Source: Jiangella mangrovi
GTDB lineage: Bacteria; Actinomycetota; Actinomycetes; Jiangellales; Jiangellaceae
DNA: 64,000 nucleotides
Reading direction: 5' to 3'
Assembly: GCF_014204975.1 (NCBI RefSeq)
Contig: NZ_JACHMM010000001.1
Coordinates: forward strand, 3,658,001 to 3,722,000
Below the pieces are notes generated by a model that saw only the letters and a program-made list of their open reading frames with translations, was not told where the DNA came from and did no database searches. The position numbers and the translations under genes are program-made. Position 1 is the stretch's first letter. Each line of letters begins with the position of its first letter. Positions 32,276 to 46,029 of this stretch are shown here, piece by piece.

Positions 32276-32536
32276 GTGATCGGATTCATCGTCGCCGGCC
32301 TGATCATCGGCGCACTCGCCCGGCTGATCAAGCCCGGCAAGCAGAACCTCGGCTGGATCGCCACCCTGCTGCTCGGACTGGCCGGATCGGTCATCGGTGG
32401 CGTGGTGGCGAACCTGCTCGGCACGGGGGACATCTTCGAACTGAACGTCCTCGGATTCATCGTCGCCGTGATCGCCGCCGTGCTGCTGATCGGTACCGCT
32501 GAGGCGCTGAGCGCCCGGCACCGTCAGGACGCCTGA
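32276..32536 (+). CDS. GlsB/YeaQ/YmgE-family stress membrane protein
   Basis: An 86-residue membrane protein with three hydrophobic segments and the Gly-rich pattern of the transglycosylase-associated family (GLIIGALARLIKPGKQ, LLGLAGSVIGG, GTGDI). GTG start with GAGGAG upstream. In many bacteria this family is under general-stress control, consistent with the SigB-type promoter found upstream. It overlaps the 3' end of the convergent SRPBCC gene by 13 bases. Confidence 0.9.
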   Translation: MIGFIVAGLIIGALARLIKPGKQNLGWIATLLLGLAGSVIGGVVANLLGTGDIFELNVLGFIVAVIAAVLLIGTAEALSARHRQDA

Positions 32537-32964
32537 CCCTCCGCGATGCGGACCAGGCGGCGCAGCGACTCGTCGTTGCGCGGCTTGAGCAGCAGGCCCT
32601 GCAGCGGCGACGGCAGGAGCCGGCCCGGGCCCTTGCTCAGCTCCTCGAGGAAGCGGATCTCGGTGTGGCCGTCCGTGCTCGGACGCAGCTCGATCCGGAC
32701 CCTGGCGGCGCCGACCGGCCACGCCCGGGCCTCGAGCTCGAGCAGCGAGCCGGGCTCGGCGGTGACGACGGTGGTGACGTCCTCGATCGACAGCGGCCAG
32801 GGGCCGACGCTGTGGTGGATCCGGCTGCCCGGCGCGGGCCAGGCCGGGTCCACGGCGCGGATGTGCGAGGCGCCCACGACCCATCCGGCGAAGCTCCAGC
32901 CGTCGGCCAGCACGGCGTAGACCTGCTCCGGTGTCACGTCCACCCGCCGCTTGACCTCGATCAT
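32524..32964 (-). CDS. SRPBCC (START-like) family protein
   Basis: A 146-residue single-domain START/SRPBCC protein, ATG at 32964 with GGGGAGGG upstream. Features are the N-terminal strand IEVKRRVDVTPEQVYAVL, the W-x-FAGWVVGAS loop and a C-terminal helix. These proteins bind hydrophobic ligands; in aromatic polyketide clusters some act as cyclases or aromatases. It is the third gene of the minus-strand operon after UbiA and the geranylgeranyl-reductase homologue, so it probably serves the phenolic-lipid pathway, perhaps by holding the lipid intermediate (inferred). Confidence 0.8.
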   Translation of the reverse strand: MIEVKRRVDVTPEQVYAVLADGWSFAGWVVGASHIRAVDPAWPAPGSRIHHSVGPWPLSIEDVTTVVTAEPGSLLELEARAWPVGAARVRIELRPSTDGHTEIRFLEELSKGPGRLLPSPLQGLLLKPRNDESLRRLVRIAEGQAS

Positions 32965-33054
32965 GTGACCCTCCCCAGCCGTCCGTTCCGCGGTCCCGGG
33001 CAGGTACCCAGGCCCGTCGCCCCCATGCACCGCCGCCCGGACGACGAGCGCGGC

Positions 33055-34185
33055 TCAGCGCGGGGTGAGGGCGCGGGCCAGTCCGGCCAGCACGTGGCGG
33101 GTCAGCCGTCCCTGGCCCAGCCCGAGGTCGACGAGGTCGTCGAAGACGCCCTGATCGCGGCGCGCCGCCGTGATGCCGGCCCGCAGCACCGCCGGCACCG
33201 CGGACAGGCGAGCGGCCCCGGCCGTGTGCCGCAGGTGCGGCCCGAGCATCGCCCGCACGGCCGTCCGGTATCGCCCTCCGGCCGACCCGGGACGCCCGGC
33301 GCTGACGGCGGCCGCCGCGGCCCGTCCGGCCAGGGCACCCGTCGCCACCGCGTAGTGGATGCCCTCGCCGGTCATCGGGTTGATCAGGCCCGCGGCGTCG
33401 CCGGCCAGCAGGAGCGGCCCGCCGGGCTGCGCCCATCGCCACGACGACAGCGGCAGGTGGTGGCCGCGCCAGTCGGTCCCGTCCTCGGCGCCGGGCAGGA
33501 CCTCGCCGAGGCGCCGCAGCAGCGCGGCACGGGTCAGGCCGTCCGTGGCGAAGGCGCCGTAGCCGACGCTGGCCAGCCCGTCGCCGCGGTCGAAGCACCA
33601 CGCGTACGCCTGCGTGACGTGCGGGTCGAACGCGATGACCTGCAGGCCCGACCAGCGCGGCGGCGTGGCCACGTAGCCGCGCAGCGCGATGGCCCGGCGC
33701 CGCGCGGGCGGGAGTCCGGCTGCCTTGCGGACGACGGAGTACGCGCCGTCCGCGCCCACCGCCACCCGGGCCGCGATGTCGCCGTCGACGACCACGACGT
33801 CGCCCCGGGAGCGGACGGAGCGCACCCGGCGTCGTTCGAACCGCGCCCCGGCGCCGACGGCGGCCGCCAGCAGCCGGTGGTCGAGGACGGTGCGCGGGAC
33901 GACCCGGACCGCCCGCCGCATGGGGCGCGACACCCGGTCCTCGCCCCGGGCCAGCTCCAGCCGCCGCACCGGCGCCCAGTCGTCCAGCAGTCCCGGGACA
34001 CCCAGGACGGCCAGGACGTCCGTCACGTCCGGCGAGATGCCGTCGCCGCACGCCTTGTCGCGCGGGAAGTCGGCGCGGTCGAGCAGCAGCACGCGCAGCC
34101 GCGGGTCCGCCGTCAGCGCCCCGAGCGCCGTCGCCGATCCGGCCGGTCCGGAGCCGACGACGACGAGGTCCCAGGGGTCATCCAT
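33055..34185 (-). CDS. Geranylgeranyl-reductase-family FAD oxidoreductase
   Basis: A 376-residue flavoprotein. N-terminal FAD site VVGSGPAGSATALGAL, the family motif KACGDGISP (~46-54), and a GDAAGLINPMTGEGIHYA motif (~270-287) that contacts the flavin. Family members reduce double bonds of prenyl chains. It lies 17 bases downstream of the UbiA gene, so a role in saturating one bond of a prenyl donor or product is a strong hypothesis: it would give the dihydro-prenyl group seen in some actinobacterial hydroquinones. No electron donor gene is next to it. Confidence 0.88.
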   Translation of the reverse strand: MDDPWDLVVVGSGPAGSATALGALTADPRLRVLLLDRADFPRDKACGDGISPDVTDVLAVLGVPGLLDDWAPVRRLELARGEDRVSRPMRRAVRVVPRTVLDHRLLAAAVGAGARFERRRVRSVRSRGDVVVVDGDIAARVAVGADGAYSVVRKAAGLPPARRRAIALRGYVATPPRWSGLQVIAFDPHVTQAYAWCFDRGDGLASVGYGAFATDGLTRAALLRRLGEVLPGAEDGTDWRGHHLPLSSWRWAQPGGPLLLAGDAAGLINPMTGEGIHYAVATGALAGRAAAAAVSAGRPGSAGGRYRTAVRAMLGPHLRHTAGAARLSAVPAVLRAGITAARRDQGVFDDLVDLGLGQGRLTRHVLAGLARALTPR

Positions 34186-34202
34186 GAGGAGGCACTACCC
34201 GT

Positions 34203-35009
34203 TCAGCTGCGCAGCACCAGCAGGACGACGTCGACCAGCGCGATGGCCATGGCCGCGCGGAACGGCGTGCTGCCCCGTCCGCGCAGCGCCACCACCGCCA
34301 GGACGGCGACGACGGCCAGACCCGCCCACGCCCACGCCGGGGGCCGGCCCGGACCCAGCACCACGAGCACCGACGCCGCAACCAGCACGACCACGGCCGT
34401 CACCCGGGCCCGCGCCGCACCGAGCCGGTGCGGCAGCCCGCGCACGCCCGTCGCGAGGTCGTCGTCGAGGTCGGGCAGCACGTTGACCAGGTGCGCGCCC
34501 ACGCCGAGCAGCGCGCCGGCGGCCATCATCCAGGCGGGCGGCCACTCGGGCGGGTCGAGGGCGAGGCTCACGACGGCGGGCAGCAGCCCGAACGCCACCG
34601 CGTACGGCAGCCACGACAGCGCCGTCCGCTTGAACAGCAGGTTGTAGCCGACGCCGCAGCCGACGAGCAGCAGGTGCACCAGCCCCGCTGCGAGTCCCAG
34701 GGCCAGCGACAGCACCACGCAGGCGGCCGCCGCCGCCGTCAGCGCCACACCGACCGTCCGCGCCGTCACCCGGCCGGTGACCAGCGGCTTGTCGGCGCGA
34801 CCCACGGCACGGTCGCGGCCGGCGTCGACCAGGTCGTTGGACCAGCCGATGGTGAGCTGGCCGGTGAACACCGCCGCCACGACCAGCACGAGTGTCGCGG
34901 CGTCGTGGCCCAGGCGCAGCGCCAGCAGCGCGCTCAGGACGGTGACGGCCGCCGTCGGCTCCGGATGGCAGGCGCGCACCAGGCCCGCCGCCGCCGTTCC
35001 CGTCGCCAC
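34203..35009 (-). CDS. UbiA-family prenyltransferase
   Basis: A 268-residue membrane protein with about eight hydrophobic helices. The first Asp-rich motif is NDLVDAGRD (N58, D59, D62, D66) and the second is [11 protein letters not shown] (from D180). Both are needed to bind Mg-diphosphate of the prenyl donor. It starts at GTG 35009 with no ribosome site; a TAAACT box seven bases ahead suggests a leaderless mRNA. Divergent from the type III PKS. It should prenylate the polyketide-derived phenol or quinol made by that operon. Confidence 0.9.
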
Positions 35010-35015
35010 GGTCGA

Positions 35016-35044
35016 AGTTTAGGGCCGGGATTTTGGCGTACAAA
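35016..35044. promoter_or_regulatory. Overlapping divergent promoter of the phenolic-lipid cluster
   Basis: Only ~41 bases separate the two start codons. TAAACT (minus strand, 35021-35016) is a good -10 for UbiA with TTTGTA as its -35 at 17 bases; the same TTTGTA/TACAAA box (35039-35044) could be the -10 of the PKS. Each -10 would thus coincide with the other -35, and both messages would have very short leaders or none. Confidence 0.4.
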
Positions 35045-35050
35045 GGGACA

Positions 35051-36130
35051 ATGACGCGCATCTTGTCCGTTCGAGGCGCCTTGCCGGATCACAAGTACGC
35101 GCAGGCGGACCTGACGGCGGCGTTCGCGGGCATGATCGCCCCGTCCGGCCGCTACGACCACGCGCTGCTGCAGCGCTTCCACGCCAACGCCGGCGTCAGC
35201 ACGCGCCACCTCGCCCTGCCGAAGGAGCGCTACGCCGAGCTGACCGACTTCGGCGCCGCCAACGACGCGTTCATCGAGGCCGCCGTCGAGCTGGGCGCCC
35301 GCGCCGTCACCGAGGCGCTCGACGCCGCCGGACTCACGCCGTCGGACGTCGACCAGATCGTGTCGACCACCATCACCGGGATCGCCGTCCCGTCGCTCGA
35401 CGCGCGGATCGCCGGGCGCATCGGACTGCGGCCGGACGTCAAGCGGGTGCCGATCGTCGGCCTCGGCTGCGTGGCCGGGGCCGCGGGCATCGCGCGGGTG
35501 CACGACTACCTGCTGGGTCATCCCCGCGACGTCGCGGTGCTGCTGTCGGTGGAGCTGTGCTCGCTGACGGTGCAGCGGGCGGACGCGTCGATCCCGAACC
35601 TGGTCGCCAGCGGCCTGTTCGGCGACGGGGCCGCCGCCGTCGTCGCGGTGGGGGCGGAGCGGGCCGGCGGGCTCGACCCACCGCCCGGGCGGGTGCGGCC
35701 GGCCGTCCTGGCCAGCCGGAGCCGGCTCTACGAGGACACCGAGCGGACCATGGGCTGGGACGTCGGCGCGAGCGGCCTGCGCATCGTCCTGAGCGCCGAC
35801 GTCCCCGATCTCGTTCGCGGGCACGTCGGCGCCGACGTCGACGGCTTCCTGTCCGATCTCGGGCTGGGCCGCGAGGACGTCGAGTGGTGGGTGTGCCATC
35901 CGGGCGGGCCGAAGGTGCTCGAGGCGATGCAGGACGCGCTCGGGGTCGACCGCGACGCGCTGGCGCTGACGTGGGACTCGCTGGACCGCATCGGCAACCT
36001 GTCGTCGGCGTCGGTGCTGCACGTCCTCGCCGACACGCTCGAGCTGCGCCCGCCGCGGCCGGGCTCGTATGGGATCGTGCTGGCCATGGGACCCGGCTTC
36101 TGCCTCGAGCTCGTCCTGCTGCGAGCGTGA
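35051..36130 (+). CDS. Type III polyketide synthase
   Basis: A 359-residue enzyme of the chalcone/stilbene synthase family. The catalytic triad is visible: C140 in [11 protein letters not shown]283 in [10 protein letters not shown] and N316 in [10 protein letters not shown]. The C-terminal GPGF loop is present. The start is ATG 35051 with AAGGGA just ahead; a TTG at 35033 is less likely. Tail domain and neighbours place it with alkylresorcinol or alkylpyrone synthases that extend fatty acyl-CoA starters with malonyl-CoA. It is first in an operon with an ICMT-like methyltransferase and an FAD monooxygenase, the SrsA-B-C order. Confidence 0.92.
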
Positions 36131-36134
36131 CCCC

Positions 36135-36665
36135 GTGTCCGACGTGTTGTTCACCGTGCTGGTGGGACTGGTCGGCCTCGAGCGGCTGGCCGAGCTGGTG
36201 GTGTCGAAGCGCAACGCGGCCTGGAGCTTCGCCCGGGGCGGCGTCGAGTACGGGCAGGGCCATTTCCCCGTCATGGTCGTCCTGCACACGGGACTGCTGG
36301 TGGGCGCGGTCGCCGAGGTGTGGATCCGCCGGCCCGAGTTCGTGCCCGCCCTGGGGTGGACGATGCTGGCGCTCGTCGTGGCGTCGCAGGCGCTGCGCTG
36401 GTGGTGCATCGCGACGCTCGGGCACCAGTGGAACACCCGGGTCATCGTCGTGCCCGGCCTGCCGCTGGTGGCCGGCGGGCCGTACCGGTGGCTGCGCCAT
36501 CCCAACTACGTCGCCGTCGTGGTCGAGGGGTTCGCGCTGCCGCTCGTGCACTCGGCCTGGATCACGGCGGTCGTGTTCACCCTGCTCAACGCCGGTTTGC
36601 TCGCCGTCCGGCTCTCGGTCGAGAATGCGGCGCTGACGGCGCTCGAGGCCGAGCGGGCGACGTGA
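36135..36665 (+). CDS. Isoprenylcysteine carboxyl methyltransferase-like (ICMT) membrane methyltransferase
   Basis: A 176-residue membrane protein with four or five hydrophobic helices, GTG start four bases after the PKS stop. The C-terminal motif GPYRWLRHPNY is the SAM-binding signature of the ICMT/PEMT family. In the alkylresorcinol (srs) cluster a protein of this type O-methylates the phenolic ring; the same role is likely here. Its stop overlaps the next start by four bases (GTGA, 36662-36665). Confidence 0.9.
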   Translation: MSDVLFTVLVGLVGLERLAELVVSKRNAAWSFARGGVEYGQGHFPVMVVLHTGLLVGAVAEVWIRRPEFVPALGWTMLALVVASQALRWWCIATLGHQWNTRVIVVPGLPLVAGGPYRWLRHPNYVAVVVEGFALPLVHSAWITAVVFTLLNAGLLAVRLSVENAALTALEAERAT

Positions 36666-37687
36666 TCGACGTCGTCGTCGCCGGCGGCGGCCCGGTGGGG
36701 CTGACGGCGGCGTTGCACGCGGCGCGAGCCGGGCTCTCGGTCGTGGTGTACGAGCCGCGGACCGGGCCGATCGACAAGGCCTGCGGCGAGGGGCTCATGC
36801 CGGGCGCCGTCGCCGCCCTCGCCGGCCTCGGCATCCACCCCGACGGCCGGTCGCTGCGCGGGATCCGTTACGTGGCCGGCCGGCGCTCGGCGGTCGCGGA
36901 CTTCCGGGCCGGCCCGGGCCGCGGCGTCCGGCGGACGACGTTGCACGCGGCGCTGCGCTCCGCGGTCGATGCCGCAGGTGTCCCCGTCGTCCCCGCGGCG
37001 ATCGATGCGGTGGCGCAGGATGCCGACGGCGTCGACGTGGACGGCATCCGCGCCCGCTACCTCGTCGCCGCCGACGGGCTGCACTCGCCCATCCGCCGCC
37101 GGCTCGGCCTGGACGTCACCGTCGGCTCGGCACGCCGCTTCGGCCTGCGACGCCACGCCCGGCTCGCGCCCTGGACCGACTACGTGGAGGTGCACTGGGC
37201 GCCGGCGGCGGAGGCGTACGTGACACCGGTCGGCGCCGACCTGGTCGGCATCGCCCTGCTCACGCGCGCCCGCGCGTCCTTCGACCAGCACCTGGCCGCG
37301 TTCCCGGCGCTCGTCTCGCGCCTTGCGGGCCACGCGGTGACGCCGGTGCTCGGCGCCGGGCCGCTCCGGCAGCGCTCGCGGCACCGGGTCGCGGGCCGCA
37401 TCCTCCTGGCCGGCGACGCAGCCGGCTACGTCGACGCCCTGACCGGCGAGGGCGTCGCCCTGGGCATGGCCCAGGCCCGCGTCGCCGTGGCCGCCATCGC
37501 AGCGGACGCGCCGGCCGGCTACGAGGCGGCCTGGCGACGGCTGACCTGGCGTTACGAGTTGATGACCCGGGTGCTGGTCGGCGCGACCTCGGTGTCCGGC
37601 GGACGGCGGGCGCTCGTCCCGCTCGCGGCCGCGCTTCCACGCCTGTTCGGTGCGGCTGTCGACGTCCTGGCCCGGCCGGCGCGCTGA
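36662..37687 (+). CDS. FAD-dependent monooxygenase / oxidoreductase
   Basis: A 341-residue flavoprotein started at GTG 36662 inside the stop of the methyltransferase gene. FAD motif VVVAGGGPVGLTAALHAARAG, KACGEGLMP, and GDAAGYVDALTGEGVALG show the p-hydroxybenzoate-hydroxylase/geranylgeranyl-reductase fold. By analogy with SrsC it should hydroxylate the resorcinol ring or convert it to a (hydro)quinone. The third and last gene of the plus-strand operon; a long hairpin follows. Confidence 0.88.
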   Translation: MIDVVVAGGGPVGLTAALHAARAGLSVVVYEPRTGPIDKACGEGLMPGAVAALAGLGIHPDGRSLRGIRYVAGRRSAVADFRAGPGRGVRRTTLHAALRSAVDAAGVPVVPAAIDAVAQDADGVDVDGIRARYLVAADGLHSPIRRRLGLDVTVGSARRFGLRRHARLAPWTDYVEVHWAPAAEAYVTPVGADLVGIALLTRARASFDQHLAAFPALVSRLAGHAVTPVLGAGPLRQRSRHRVAGRILLAGDAAGYVDALTGEGVALGMAQARVAVAAIAADAPAGYEAAWRRLTWRYELMTRVLVGATSVSGGRRALVPLAAALPRLFGAAVDVLARPAR

Positions 37688-37809: not shown

Positions 37810-38832
37810 TCAGGGGGTGAGCAGGACCTTGATGGCGCGGCGCTCGTCCATGGCCCGGTAGCCGTCGGCGGCGTCGTCGAGGGGGAGGGTGAGGTCGAAG
37901 ACCCGGCCCGGGTCGATCGCACCGGCGATGATCAGCTCGATCAGCTCGGGCAGGAACCGGCGGACGGGAGCGGGCCCGCCGTGCAGGTGCACACCGGAGA
38001 AGAACAGCTCGTCGCCGGGGAGTGCGACGTCGTGGGCGACGCCGACGTAGCCGACGTGGCCGCCGGCGCGGGTGGAGCGGATGGCCTGCATCATCGACTC
38101 CTGGGTGCCGACGGCCTCGATGACCGAGTGGGCGCCGAGGCCGCCGGTGAGCTCCTTCACCGCCGCCACGCCGTCGTCGCCGCGTTCGGTGACGATGTCG
38201 GTGGCGCCGAAGTCGCGGGCCAGGGCCTGGCGGTCGCCGTGGCGGCTCATGGCGATGACGCGTTCCGCGCCGAGGTGGCGTGCGGCGAGCACGCCGAGCA
38301 GGCCCACCGCACCGTCGCCGACGACGGCGACGGTCTTGCCGGGTCCGGCCTCGGCGGCGACGGCGGCGAACCAGCCGGTGCCGAGCACGTCGGACGCCGC
38401 GAGCAGTGACGGGACCAATCGCGGGTCCGGTACGCCCGGGGTGGCGACGAGGGTGCCGTCGGCCATGGGGATCCGGGCCCGTTCGGCCTGGGTGCCGATG
38501 GAGCCCATGGAGACGGCGTGCACGCAGCGGCTCTGGTAGCCGGCGCGGCAGATCTCGCACGTGTTGTCGGAGGCGAAGAACGACCCGACCACGAAGTCTC
38601 CGACCCGCACGGCGCGCACGTCGGAGCCGATCTCCTCGACGACGCCGACGTACTCGTGGCCCATGTGCCGCGGCAGCCGCGGCTTCTCGATGCCGCGGTA
38701 GGGCCAGAGGTCGGAGCCGCAGATGCAGGCCGCGGTGACACGGATGACCGCGTCGGTGGGTTCGACGATGACCGGGTCCGCACGCTCCTCGACCCGGATG
38801 TCGCCGGGTGCGTGCAGGACGGCTCCGCGCAT
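37810..38832 (-). CDS. Zinc-dependent alcohol dehydrogenase (MDR family)
   Basis: A 340-residue medium-chain dehydrogenase. Catalytic zinc motifs CICGSD and GHEYVGVVEE, structural-zinc cysteines (CEICRAGYQSRC; only three of the usual four are obvious) and the NAD(P) site GDGAVGLLGVLAA are present. Subgroup matches threonine/alcohol dehydrogenase-like proteins annotated as zinc-dependent oxidoreductases. It is not in an operon and its substrate cannot be told. There is no DevR box upstream, unlike its relative at 42.3 kb. Confidence 0.9.
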   Translation of the reverse strand: MRGAVLHAPGDIRVEERADPVIVEPTDAVIRVTAACICGSDLWPYRGIEKPRLPRHMGHEYVGVVEEIGSDVRAVRVGDFVVGSFFASDNTCEICRAGYQSRCVHAVSMGSIGTQAERARIPMADGTLVATPGVPDPRLVPSLLAASDVLGTGWFAAVAAEAGPGKTVAVVGDGAVGLLGVLAARHLGAERVIAMSRHGDRQALARDFGATDIVTERGDDGVAAVKELTGGLGAHSVIEAVGTQESMMQAIRSTRAGGHVGYVGVAHDVALPGDELFFSGVHLHGGPAPVRRFLPELIELIIAGAIDPGRVFDLTLPLDDAADGYRAMDERRAIKVLLTP

Positions 38833-39343: not shown

Positions 39344-40108
39344 ATGCCCTTCGACTACGACGCCGAGCTCCGGTATCTCGACCCGCCGTTCCGCGAGACG
39401 CTCGCGATCGGGCCGGCCGACCGGGTGCTCGACGTCGGCTGCGGGAGCGGGCGGACCACCCGCGACGCGGCCCGCATCGCGACGGCGGGCCGGGTCCTGG
39501 GCGTCGACGTCGCGCCGGCCCGGATCGACGAGGCGCGCGGGCTCGCCGCCCGCGAGGGCCTGCGCAACGTCGCGTTCGAGACCGCCGACGCGCAGGCGCA
39601 GCCGTTCCCTGAGGGCGGGTTCGACCTGGTCATGAGCCGGTTCGGGACGATGTTCTTCGCCGACCCGGCCGCCGCGTTCGCGAACCTCGCGCGGGCGACC
39701 CGGCCAGGCGGACGGCTGGCGATGATCGTCTGGCAGGGGCGCGCGGCCAACGCCTGGGCCGGCCCGCTGATCGCGGCGATCCTGGGTGGGGCGGAGCCCG
39801 ATCGGGGTGACGACGGCGCGTTCTCGCTCGCCGATCCCGGCGCGACCCGCGCGCTGCTCGAGTCGGCGGGCTACGGCGACGTCGGGTTCGCCGCGGTCGA
39901 GCGGCCGGTCTGGTACGGCGACGGCGTCGACGCGGCGTTCGAGGCCGTGCTGCAGCTGCGGGAGCCCCAGGGCGCCCTTGCCGGGTTCGACGGCGCCGGG
40001 CTCGCCGCCGCGCGCGAGCGGCTGCGCGCTCACCTCGCCGCGCACGCGACCCCGGACGGCGTCCTGTACGACGCCCGCGCCTGGATCGTCACCGCCGTCC
40101 GGCCCTGA
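39344..40108 (+). CDS. Class I SAM-dependent methyltransferase
   Basis: A 254-residue cytoplasmic methyltransferase of the Methyltransf_11/25 type. Motif I VLDVGCGSGRTT (~29-40), acidic motif VLGVDVAP, FETADAQAQPFP and the MSRFGTMFF segment are all present. It is divergent from the CC-motif small protein and convergent with a universal stress protein gene 16 bases away. The acceptor substrate is unknown. Confidence 0.9.
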   Translation: MPFDYDAELRYLDPPFRETLAIGPADRVLDVGCGSGRTTRDAARIATAGRVLGVDVAPARIDEARGLAAREGLRNVAFETADAQAQPFPEGGFDLVMSRFGTMFFADPAAAFANLARATRPGGRLAMIVWQGRAANAWAGPLIAAILGGAEPDRGDDGAFSLADPGATRALLESAGYGDVGFAAVERPVWYGDGVDAAFEAVLQLREPQGALAGFDGAGLAAARERLRAHLAAHATPDGVLYDARAWIVTAVRP

Positions 40109-41738: not shown

Positions 41739-41758
41739 TTCGGGACCTTCGTCCCGAG
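41739..41758. promoter_or_regulatory. DevR/DosR box (PIG-L/USP operon)
   Basis: TTCGGGACCTTCGTCCCGAG matches the 20-bp mycobacterial DosR consensus TTSGGGACTWWAGTCCCSAA at nearly all specified positions and is a near-perfect palindrome. Its centre lies 63 bases upstream of the PIG-L start. A weaker half-match (GGAC....GAACC) lies about 20 bases further along. Confidence 0.85.
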
Positions 41759-43435: not shown

Positions 43436-43519
43436 GATTCCTCCTGACGTGGTGATGGATGCTCTACTTCGACGACACCACCGCGCGGCGGGTCGGCGCA
43501 GAGCCCAACGGCCCGGGCA

Positions 43520-43539
43520 CCCACGACCTCGGTCCCGCG
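43520..43539. promoter_or_regulatory. Possible weak DevR box before devS
   Basis: ACGAC-CTCG-GTCCC keeps a perfect 3' half and a degenerate 5' half of the DevR box. It sits 16 bases ahead of the GTG at 43555 but would be inside the coding region if devS starts at 43459. It could also serve the divergent dehydrogenase. Confidence 0.35.
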
Positions 43540-43554
43540 TGGCACGATCACCTC

Positions 43555-45276
43555 GTGGAGGAGTCCGATCATCTTCTTCCGAAGCTGCCGCTCGACGAGC
43601 TGCTCGCCGAGGTGCAGTCGCGGCTGCAGGCGGTCGTGGCCGCCCGCGACGGCGTGCACGCGCTGCTCGAGGCGGTGGTGTCCATCGGCCGCGAGCTGGA
43701 CCTCGAGACCGCGCTGCGGCGCATCGTCGAGGCGGCGACGGAGCTGGCCGACTGCCGCTACGGCGCGCTCGGCGTCATCGGCGACGACGGACGGCTGGCG
43801 CAGTTCCTCCCGGTGGGCGTCAGCGAGCAGGAGATCGCCCGGATCCACGAGTGGCCGCACGGGCGCGGGCTGCTCGGCCTGCTCATCGCTGAGCCCGAGA
43901 CGCTACGACTGGCCGAGATCAGCGAGCACGCGGCGTCCTACGGCTTCCCCGACGGCCATCCCGCGATGCACAGCTTCCTCGGCGTGCCGATCCGGATCCG
44001 CGACGAGGTCTTCGGCAACCTCTACCTGACCGAGAAGCGCGACGGCCGCGAGTTCGACGAGCAGGACGAGATCATCGTCAAGGCGCTGGCCACGGCGGCC
44101 GGCATCGCCATCGGGAACGCCCGCCTCTACGACGCCACCCGCCGGCGCGAGACCTGGCTCGACGCGTCGGCCGAGGTCACGCAGGCGCTGCTGTCCGGCA
44201 CGGCCTCGGAAGAGGCGCTGCGGCTGATCGCCCGGCACGGGCGTGGCATGGCCGGTGCCGACACCTCGATCATCGTGGTGCCCGAGGAGGGCGGTCGGAT
44301 GCTGCGGGTGCTCGCCGTCGACGGCGTGGACGGCAGCGACGGCGACGGTGACGGCGGCGTGCGCGACATGGCGTTCTCGGCCGAAGGGACGCTGTCGGCG
44401 ACGGTGCTGGCCTCCGGCGAGCCGCGCGCCGTGCCCGAGCTGCGGCGCGACGCCGCGCCCATGCCGGTGCTCGACCGGCTGCCGGACGGGCCGGCGCTGC
44501 TGGTGCCGCTGGGTGCGCCGCCGTCGGTGCGGGCGGTGCTGCTGCTGGCCAAGAGGCGGGGCGCGACCCCGTTCGCCGAGCCGGCGGTGCGCATGCTGCA
44601 CGCGTTCGCGAGCCAGGCCGCCGTCGGGCTCGAGCTGGCCGACGCGCGCAAGGCGGCCGAGGAGCACGGGCTGGTCGACGACCGCGAGCGGATCGCCCGC
44701 GACCTGCACGACGTCATCGTGCAGCGGCTGTTCGCCGGCGCGATGAGCCTGACGGCGACCGCTCGGCTGATCGACCGGCCCGACGTCGCGGCGCGCATCG
44801 AGCACGTCGTCGAGGACCTGGACGCCACGATCCGGCAGATCCGCTCGACGATCTTCGCGCTGCAGACGTCGAAGGAGGATCGCGCGACGACGCTGCGGGG
44901 CCGGCTGGTCACGCTGGTCGAGTCCGCGCGCGAGCAGCTGGGGTTCGCCCCGGGCCTGCAGCTGGTCGGCGAGCTGGACAACGCCGTCCCCGACGACCTC
45001 GCCGAGCAGCTCGTGCCGGTGCTGCAGGAGGCGCTGTCCAACGCGGTGCGGCATGCCCGCGCGACGCGCGTCGACGTGCTGGTGTCCGCCGCCGGGGGCG
45101 TGCTCCTGCTCCAGGTGGCCGACGACGGCGTGGGGCTGCCGGCCGAGCGGCACGAGAGCGGCCTGGCCAACCTCGCGCAGCGGGCCGAGCGGCTCGGCGG
45201 GACGTTCACGGCCGGTCCGGGCCAGGACGGCGGGACGACGGTGCGCTGGGCGGTGCCGCTCGATCAGGAGTCGTGA
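43555..45276 (+). CDS. devS: DevS/DosS-like haem-GAF sensor histidine kinase
   Basis: A 573-residue soluble kinase from GTG 43555 (an in-frame ATG at 43459 would add 32 residues). Two GAF domains (~30-190 and ~205-365) precede HisKA_3 with phospho-acceptor H385 (ARDLHDVIVQR) and a HATPase domain. In GAF-A the segment GFPDGHPAMHSFLGVP aligns with DosS GFPPYHPPMRTFLG, so H135 matches the proximal haem ligand His149 of DosS. Length and domain order match DosS (578 residues). It should sense oxygen, NO or CO through haem and phosphorylate DevR. Unusually it is convergent with devR and their 3' ends overlap by 13 bases. Confidence 0.93.
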   Translation: MEESDHLLPKLPLDELLAEVQSRLQAVVAARDGVHALLEAVVSIGRELDLETALRRIVEAATELADCRYGALGVIGDDGRLAQFLPVGVSEQEIARIHEWPHGRGLLGLLIAEPETLRLAEISEHAASYGFPDGHPAMHSFLGVPIRIRDEVFGNLYLTEKRDGREFDEQDEIIVKALATAAGIAIGNARLYDATRRRETWLDASAEVTQALLSGTASEEALRLIARHGRGMAGADTSIIVVPEEGGRMLRVLAVDGVDGSDGDGDGGVRDMAFSAEGTLSATVLASGEPRAVPELRRDAAPMPVLDRLPDGPALLVPLGAPPSVRAVLLLAKRRGATPFAEPAVRMLHAFASQAAVGLELADARKAAEEHGLVDDRERIARDLHDVIVQRLFAGAMSLTATARLIDRPDVAARIEHVVEDLDATIRQIRSTIFALQTSKEDRATTLRGRLVTLVESAREQLGFAPGLQLVGELDNAVPDDLAEQLVPVLQEALSNAVRHARATRVDVLVSAAGGVLLLQVADDGVGLPAERHESGLANLAQRAERLGGTFTAGPGQDGGTTVRWAVPLDQES

Positions 45277-45926
45277 CGGCTCTCGGCCTTGAGCTGGACG
45301 GCGAGGATGGCGGCCTGCGTGCGACGGTTCATGTGCAGCTTCCCGAGCATGGTCGAGACGTAGTTCTTCACCGTCTTCTCGGCCAGGTACATCCGCTCGC
45401 CGATCTGCCGGTTCGTCAGCCCCTCGCCGATGAGGTCGAAGATCCGCCGCTCCTGGTCGGAGAGGCCGGCCAGCCGGTCCGGCTTGCTGGCGCGGTCGCG
45501 CAGCCGGGCCAGCATGCGCGCGGTGCTGGCGGGATCGAGCAGCGACTGCCCGGCGGCCAGGGCCCGGACCGCGCCGATGAGGTCGGTGCCGTGGACCTGC
45601 TTCAGGACGTACCCGGCGGCGCCGGCCATGACGGCGTCGAAGAGCGCGTCGTCGTCGGCGTAGGACGTGAGCATGAGGCACTGCAGGTCCGGCAGTTGCG
45701 AGCGCATCTCGCGGCAGACGGTGACGCCGTCGCCGTCGGGCAGCCGGACGTCGAGGATCGCGACGTCGGGCCGGAGGGCGGGGATGCGGGCCATGGCCTG
45801 CTCGGCGGTGCCGGCCTCGCCGACGACCTCGATGTCTGATTCGGTCTCGAGCAGGGCCGCGACACCGCGGCGGACCACCTCGTGGTCGTCGAGCAGGAAG
45901 ACCCTGATGGTGCGATCGGTGTCCAC
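45264..45926 (-). CDS. devR: DevR/DosR-like response regulator
   Basis: A 220-residue regulator, GTG start. The receiver domain has D13/D14, phospho-acceptor D59 in ILDVRLPDGDG and TSYADDD; the output domain has LSDQERRIFDLIGEGLTNRQ and AEKTVKNYVS, the latter identical to the DosR DNA-recognition helix. Overall likeness to mycobacterial DosR is high along the whole length. A DevR box is centred 43 bases upstream of the start, so positive autoregulation and a leaderless message are likely. Its partner is devS, encoded tail to tail. Confidence 0.94.
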   Translation of the reverse strand: MDTDRTIRVFLLDDHEVVRRGVAALLETESDIEVVGEAGTAEQAMARIPALRPDVAILDVRLPDGDGVTVCREMRSQLPDLQCLMLTSYADDDALFDAVMAGAAGYVLKQVHGTDLIGAVRALAAGQSLLDPASTARMLARLRDRASKPDRLAGLSDQERRIFDLIGEGLTNRQIGERMYLAEKTVKNYVSTMLGKLHMNRRTQAAILAVQLKAESRHDS

Positions 45927-45959: not shown

Positions 45960-45979
45960 GCGGGGACCAAAGTCCCGTC
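45960..45979. promoter_or_regulatory. DevR/DosR box proximal to devR
   Basis: Core GGGAC-CAAA-GTCCC (45963-45976) is a perfect palindrome in its arms. Its centre is 43.5 bases from the devR start codon, where an activator would overlap the -35 region of a leaderless transcript. Confidence 0.85.
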
Positions 45980-46009: not shown

Positions 46010-46029
46010 GACGGGACCTTGGTCCCTGG
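46010..46029. promoter_or_regulatory. DevR/DosR box proximal to the PNPOx-like gene
   Basis: Core GGGAC-CTTG-GTCCC (46013-46026) with perfect arms. Its centre is 42.5 bases upstream of the GTG at 46062, a mirror image of the devR side. Confidence 0.85.

Follow-up and report, generated by a model that had tools for sequence, protein, structure and literature searches.

What would an actinobacterium make with a type III polyketide synthase (PKS) gene lying back to back with genes for a membrane prenyltransferase and a relative of prenyl-chain reductases? The question is raised by a locus of Jiangella mangrovi within a window of 64,000 nucleotides, by which we mean the whole stretch of DNA analysed (positions 3,658,001 to 3,722,000, forward strand, of contig NZ_JACHMM010000001.1, RefSeq assembly GCF_014204975.1); the host genome is a single contig of 7,162,500 bp, and the best named relatives of the window are Jiangella species. 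A first-pass annotation had described six genes here as a phenolic-lipid cluster, and all six are present at the place and on the strands reported. The answer that we favour, and hold to be rather probable, is that two small divergent operons encode a pathway to a prenylated, partly hydrogenated methoxy-alkylhydroquinone or quinone.

The functional unit consists of five genes in two divergent groups (33055–37687; a codon-score gene caller was used for the gene borders). On the plus strand, a type III PKS of the alkylresorcinol-synthase type (35051–36130, ATG at 35051, 359 aa; PF00195/PF02797) is followed by an ICMT-like membrane O-methyltransferase (36135–36665, 176 aa; PF04140, 97 bits) and an FAD-dependent aromatic monooxygenase (FMO; 36662–37687, 341 aa; PF01494, 54 bits), so that both the families and the srs-like order annotated for 35051–37687 are borne out. 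On the minus strand lie a UbiA-family membrane prenyltransferase (34203–35009, 268 aa, GTG start; PF01040, 93 bits) and a flavoprotein of the geranylgeranyl-reductase superfamily (GGR; 33055–34185, 376 aa; TIGR02032, 166 bits), which is the proposed prenyl-chain reductase; with an SRPBCC gene beyond them, they occupy 32524–35009 and diverge from the PKS, as annotated. A longer open reading frame at 34195–35061 was discarded as the UbiA gene, being in a different frame and without a Pfam or NCBIfam match.

The genes are tightly packed: 4 bp separate PKS and ICMT, ICMT and FMO overlap by 4 bp, 17 bp separate GGR and UbiA, and 41 bp lie between the start codons of UbiA and PKS (35010–35050). This intergenic region contains an AGTTTA that is invariant in eight Jiangella sequences; a scan of it for a sigma-70-like promoter found none. 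PF02797 is matched in the whole genome by the window PKS only. In the other Jiangella loci, UbiA adjoins PKS wherever the GGR-side flank is available (10/10), GGR adjoins UbiA in nine of ten (in the exception, G002, a GGR of 68% identity lies about 0.6 Mb away), and ICMT and FMO follow PKS in nine of ten (in the tenth, L042, the contig stops inside the PKS). Because this neighbour order is kept while the genes outside the five-gene unit vary among the same ten loci, the grouping is not a matter of chance.

The PKS is of the alkylresorcinol type, as had been annotated. Its closest PDB chain is PKS11 of Mycobacterium tuberculosis (E 2e-117), and its catalytic triad, Cys140-His283-Asn316, is conserved in 80/80, 80/80 and 79/80 (one gap) of the named relatives, a set made up of the best 80 of 159 relatives. 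Trp236 aligns with Trp230 of PKS11 in a hand-counted alignment, and the assignment of this position to the resorcinol site rests on that alignment together with PMC5916927. In the portion of that paper accessible to us (the same holds for PMC9927152, PMC3569393 and PMC7692728 below), ArsB requires this tryptophan to form resorcinols, and SrsA, PKS10 and PKS11 have it as well. Of the 80 named relatives, 56 carry Trp at the site and 24 carry Phe; the Phe-site loci are all from Nocardioides, and 21 of these 24 have a linked GGR.

Judged from their sequences, the PKS, ICMT and FMO genes match the srs/pkq (polyketide quinone) core. The srsABC/pkqABC genes of Streptomyces and mycobacteria likewise encode a PKS, a methyltransferase and an FAD oxidoreductase in the same order, and genes of this type are 57–67% identical to those of the window in a family that is probably the mycobacteria (f4, locus L023) and 58–68% identical in family f19 (L020). 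An operon of this kind in Streptomyces sp. MNU77 and Mycobacterium smegmatis yields methoxy-alkylbenzoquinones (PMC9927152). The published unit has three genes (PMC9927152; PMC5916927), whereas the window adds a divergent UbiA and GGR. The core recurs throughout the named loci, with an ICMT match in 79/80 and an FMO match in 80/80, although the match in L042 is its GGR gene, the true FMO lying beyond the contig end; in L056 and L084 the FMO is upstream of the PKS and on the other strand. A sequence search of the PDB with ICMT gave no match.

The case for prenylation begins with UbiA itself. Across 40 sequences the residues N58, D59, D62 and D66 (NDxxDxxxD) and D180 and D184 (the second Asp motif) are invariant, and the predicted model (pLDDT 95.9) finds its best fold match in the archaeal UbiA homologue 4od5; a sequence search of the PDB gave no match. 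In 72 of the 80 named loci, no more than 6 kb separates UbiA from the PKS, which is our definition of adjacency. Among the remaining eight, the contigs of L038, L058, L073, L089 and L106 stop less than 1 kb upstream of the PKS, and UbiA was not seen in the full flanks of L090 and L094 or in the 4.1 kb upstream of the PKS in L095.

A survey of the class, an even sample of 246 genomes, gave 82 with a PKS match at E up to 1e-60. For UbiA and GGR, 80 of these PKS-positive genomes were scored, all but G183 and G231, which diverge most, and 80 of the 164 genomes without a PKS match served for comparison; the surveyed genomes are related, so that the counts are not independent, and a limited number of first-look candidates was scored in each, so that misses are possible. 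UbiA is present in 63 of the 80 PKS-positive genomes and adjacent to the PKS in 47, and in five families represented by two or more genomes it is adjacent in every member. The probable mycobacteria stand apart, with a UbiA match in 0/12 PKS-positive genomes.

A further gene points the same way. An isopentenyl-diphosphate isomerase (IDI; 246 bits to PRK03759) is encoded directly 3' of the FMO and on the same strand in 42 of the 77 named loci with an FMO, in Terrabacter, Phycicoccus, Nocardioides and others, the aligned ends being −15 to +81 nt apart; its position therefore provides independent support for the use of isoprenoids. In Jiangella no IDI was found beside the FMO, and the only match in the window genome is at 2.55 Mb.

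The physically linked reductase homologue, also claimed at the outset, is upheld by family matches, conserved adjacency and phylogeny. The protein passes the TIGR02032 cut-off (166.2 versus 158.8 bits), its best PDB sequence match is the archaeal prenyl reductase 3oz2, and its model (pLDDT 88.9) again has 3oz2 as the best Foldseek match, with TMq 0.81 to 3atq/4opl. A full-length relative lies beside the cluster in 31 of the 80 named loci (split or partial matches in G001, G114 and L092 are excluded from all counts); Jiangella and the majority of Nocardioides loci have it, as do a few others. In 21 of the 24 named Nocardioides loci, UbiA, GGR, PKS, ICMT and FMO stand in this order, all on one strand. 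In the GGR tree, in which the rows WIN, L133 and L154 are one and the same window gene, a single clade of 34 distinct sequences (support 100/99) contains 32 that are linked. The only linked GGR outside it, G131/L127, represents a separate linkage in one more family. Relatives scoring at least 230 bits, the survey threshold, occur in 36/80 PKS-positive versus 11/80 PKS-negative genomes, and unlinked relatives sit among varying genes, among the matches listed. The evidence thus supports a GGR homologue bound to the cluster by both gene position and phylogeny, and its family and linkage make it a candidate for hydrogenating the prenyl chain.

Reading each reaction, and the order of reactions, from enzyme families whose gene identities, order, conservation and motifs are observed, we propose the following scheme. 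The PKS would convert a long-chain acyl-CoA into a 5-alkylresorcinol, which the ICMT-like enzyme would O-methylate and the monooxygenase would hydroxylate on the ring, giving the methoxy-alkylhydroquinone of the srs/pkq core. UbiA would then transfer a short prenyl group to this hydroquinone, and the GGR homologue would saturate one or more of the prenyl double bonds, either on the diphosphate or after transfer. Characterised homologues stand behind the first three steps, family and linkage behind prenylation, and family and linkage only behind hydrogenation.

The first-pass annotation had likened this gene set to the agq cluster of Actinoplanes, which was reportedly described by Awakawa et al. 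in 2011. For the comparison we used L194, a type III PKS–UbiA locus of Actinoplanes missouriensis that is presumed, partly from its content, to be agq; in its genome (G288), scoring 8 of 22 candidates gave a single UbiA-family match at E up to 1e-10, which lies beside a type III PKS. The likeness proved partial. L194 shares with the window a type III PKS (35% identity) and a UbiA of the same family (50%), along with the presence of one methyltransferase and one flavoenzyme; the UbiAs of window-type and L194-type loci form one family in a tree whose backbone is unresolved and whose bootstrap is not settled. The tailoring genes are another matter, since in place of the window's ICMT and PHBH-type FMO, L194 has a methyltransferase resembling UbiG and a flavoprotein with the acyl-CoA-dehydrogenase fold, and orthology of these genes was rejected on the ground that they come from other families. 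No homologue of ICMT, the PHBH-type FMO or GGR was found in the 19 kb of L194, to which the GGR search was limited. If L194 is agq, agq would therefore be analogous to the window locus, with PKS and UbiA in common but different tailoring genes, and a linked reductase would not explain its dihydrogeranyl group. The product in A. missouriensis is given as 6-alkyl-4-O-dihydrogeranyl-2-methoxyhydroquinones (PMC3569393), and orthologues of agqA and agqB–agqD stand side by side in Phytohabitans (PMC7692728).

The loseolamycin locus (losA) of Micromonospora endolithica also places a UbiA, a methyltransferase and a type III PKS next to one another, as the window does, but in the arrangement of L194; its products are alkylresorcinols, and the string 'prenylat' is absent from the text of the paper (PMC7587189). 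Loci of this second kind were seen in L194, L195, L197, L190, L168, L173 and L176; they carry a methyltransferase of the UbiG type and a protein with the acyl-CoA-dehydrogenase fold, the family search covering L194 only. Four of them (L190, L194, L195 and L197) lie between radA/disA-like and carD-like genes, as in the loseolamycin table (PMC7587189); the labels RadA, DisA and CarD, like MenE below, were read from the sequences and only partly searched. In family f36, inferred to be Micromonosporaceae, 314 of 320 genomes have a UbiA-family match.

Several observations weigh against the proposed pathway. A GGR is absent beside many UbiA-containing clusters (31 full-length GGRs versus UbiA in 72 of the 80 named loci), and GGR relatives are also present in the 11 PKS-negative genomes, though none of these exceeds 51% identity. 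The only characterised relative known to us, agq, makes a dihydro chain although its locus, if L194 is agq, lacks a linked GGR. The fold search ranks archaeal GGR first with halogenases close behind, and so cannot tell reductases apart from halogenases or monooxygenases. The motif counts here too: YxWxFP, which we take to be the substrate motif of geranylgeranyl reductases, is present in 25 of 26 other GGR family rows (YxWxFA in the remaining one), whereas all rows of the main linked clade carry YxWxFDRGDG, keeping Y-x-W-x-F with Asp in place of the Pro, and the activity could have changed.

These points leave room for a different role, in which the GGR homologue would be a second ring-modifying flavoenzyme, a hydroxylase or quinone reductase, and no prenyl reductase. 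In favour of such a role, besides fold matches to halogenases and monooxygenases about as strong as those to GGRs and the replacement of the motif Pro by Asp-Arg, the cluster FMO belongs to the same superfamily and is 29–37% identical where the GGR matches. Against it stand the TIGR02032 score, the archaeal prenyl reductase as best PDB sequence match, and the retained Y-x-W-x-F, which is absent from the FMOs: the motif pattern was found in 0/82 FMO sequences (the pattern likewise failed on 6 of the 35 linked GGR rows, which alignment recovered), and three aligned FMOs read AYVTPV at the site. On this evidence we regard a ring-modifying role as unlikely, though less so than the alternatives that follow.

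Might UbiA and GGR instead work in a different pathway, for menaquinone or carotenoids, and be mere neighbours of the PKS operon? Stand-alone relatives of both proteins in other genomes speak for this. UbiA relatives occur in 34 of the 80 genomes below the PKS threshold, though at least seven of these have a divergent PKS next to them; this count also weighs against the proposed pathway, as does the lack of a UbiA within 6 kb of the PKS in 16 of the 63 UbiA-containing PKS-positive genomes (some on short contigs). The menaquinone form of this alternative resembles the cluster in pairing, as MenA and MenJ do, a UbiA prenyltransferase with a GGR-superfamily reductase. The J. mangrovi genome, however, holds further UbiA members, one of which has an AMP-ligase gene as its neighbour (the two are read as MenA and MenE). 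Elsewhere it encodes a GGR-superfamily protein that scores 265 bits against TIGR02032; MenJ comes second, with a score under the MenJ cut-off. These MenA- and MenJ-like genes are at 2.79–2.80 Mb, separate from the cluster. Given this likely menaquinone pair, the cluster UbiA and GGR are additional paralogues, and a menaquinone role for them was rejected; the cluster GGR scores 90 bits against the MenJ equivalog, whose cut-off is 700.

The carotenoid form draws on Nocardioides. L064 (1–11230) and 13 further loci of this genus have the five-gene block at the tail end of a long series of genes on a single strand, made up of a crtI-like gene, two lycopene-cyclase-type genes, P450, GT2, a CrtO-type acyltransferase, PAP2, UbiA, GGR, PKS, ICMT, FMO and IDI. 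The block thus continues a carotenoid operon in 14 named loci, and a carotenoid link is possible there. Linkage recurs, however, over many genera, most without a carotenoid-probe match in the available flanks, and in the A. missouriensis locus, too, a member of this UbiA family sits with a type III PKS. We think there is little chance that UbiA and GGR are bystanders.

A comparably small chance attaches to a cluster that makes only an unprenylated polyketide quinone, with UbiA and GGR acting rarely or on a minor share of the product. The three-gene operon with unprenylated quinones in Streptomyces sp. MNU77 is its precedent (PMC9927152); against it, a search for prenylated forms goes unmentioned in the accessible part of that paper, and UbiA is adjacent in all six PKS-containing genomes of family f19. 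Least plausible of all is that the PKS makes alkylpyrones, as the PDB title of its closest solved relative, PKS11, an alpha-pyrone synthesis PKS, might suggest, since the resorcinol site has Trp, PKS11 is itself counted among the resorcinol formers (PMC5916927), and a methyltransferase and a hydroxylase suit a phenol.

The SRPBCC/polyketide-cyclase-2 protein (32524–33030, minus strand, 168 aa; PF10604, 39 bits), put forward in the first-pass annotation as an extra candidate step, did not hold up and is treated as a neighbour outside the unit: a counterpart is near the unit in one of the ten other Jiangella loci (L034), at another position, on the opposite strand and with another gene between. 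A Zn-alcohol dehydrogenase (37810–38832) and a methyltransferase (39344–40108) were likewise set aside, as neither is retained beside the unit in the other Jiangella loci, except that in J. ureilytica a methyltransferase beside the unit resembles the 39344–40108 product in its N-terminal sequence.

Farther out, the window contains three exact GGGACNNNNGTCCC palindromes (41742–41755, 45963–45976 and 46013–46026), all between called genes; we take GGGACNNNNGTCCC to be the DosR-type box consensus. Three exact boxes compare with 0.43 expected, a number reached in 0 of 100 shuffles, and with one mismatch allowed there is no excess (9 found versus 9.24 expected). Two of the boxes adjoin genes for a LuxR-type response regulator (45264–45926) and a pyridoxamine-oxidase-like protein, and the regulator abuts a GAF-domain histidine kinase (43459–45276). 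The ensemble looks like a DosR-type hypoxia system 4–8 kb from the cluster; among the window matches, no exact DosR-like box lies at the cluster promoters.

The cluster is best regarded as an enlarged form of a quinone pathway already described from bacteria, and not as a wholly new kind. No type III PKS–UbiA–GGR cluster was found in the literature searched, which is weak evidence, as subscription papers were mostly outside the coverage. The adjacent UbiA, the linked IDI and the clade-specific reductase indicate that the end product is probably prenylated in many actinomycetes and hydrogenated in some, and the cluster offers a candidate enzyme for the formation of dihydro-prenyl phenolic lipids. 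Polyketide quinones have been proposed to stand in as respiratory carriers when oxygen is scarce (PMC9927152). The position of the prenyl group would matter in this regard: O-prenylation, as in the name of the Actinoplanes product, would lock the hydroquinone, whereas C-prenylation would leave a working quinone. More broadly, and only tentatively, the three-gene polyketide-quinone operon may, in many non-mycobacterial actinomycetes, be extended by UbiA, together with IDI and/or a dedicated reductase, to a pathway of five to six genes that yields a prenylated, partly hydrogenated lipoquinone. If so, these bacteria would possess an independent counterpart of hydrogenated menaquinone, made by MenA-like and MenJ-like enzymes of its own, and prenylation would decide whether the product is a redox carrier or a locked phenolic lipid of the membrane.

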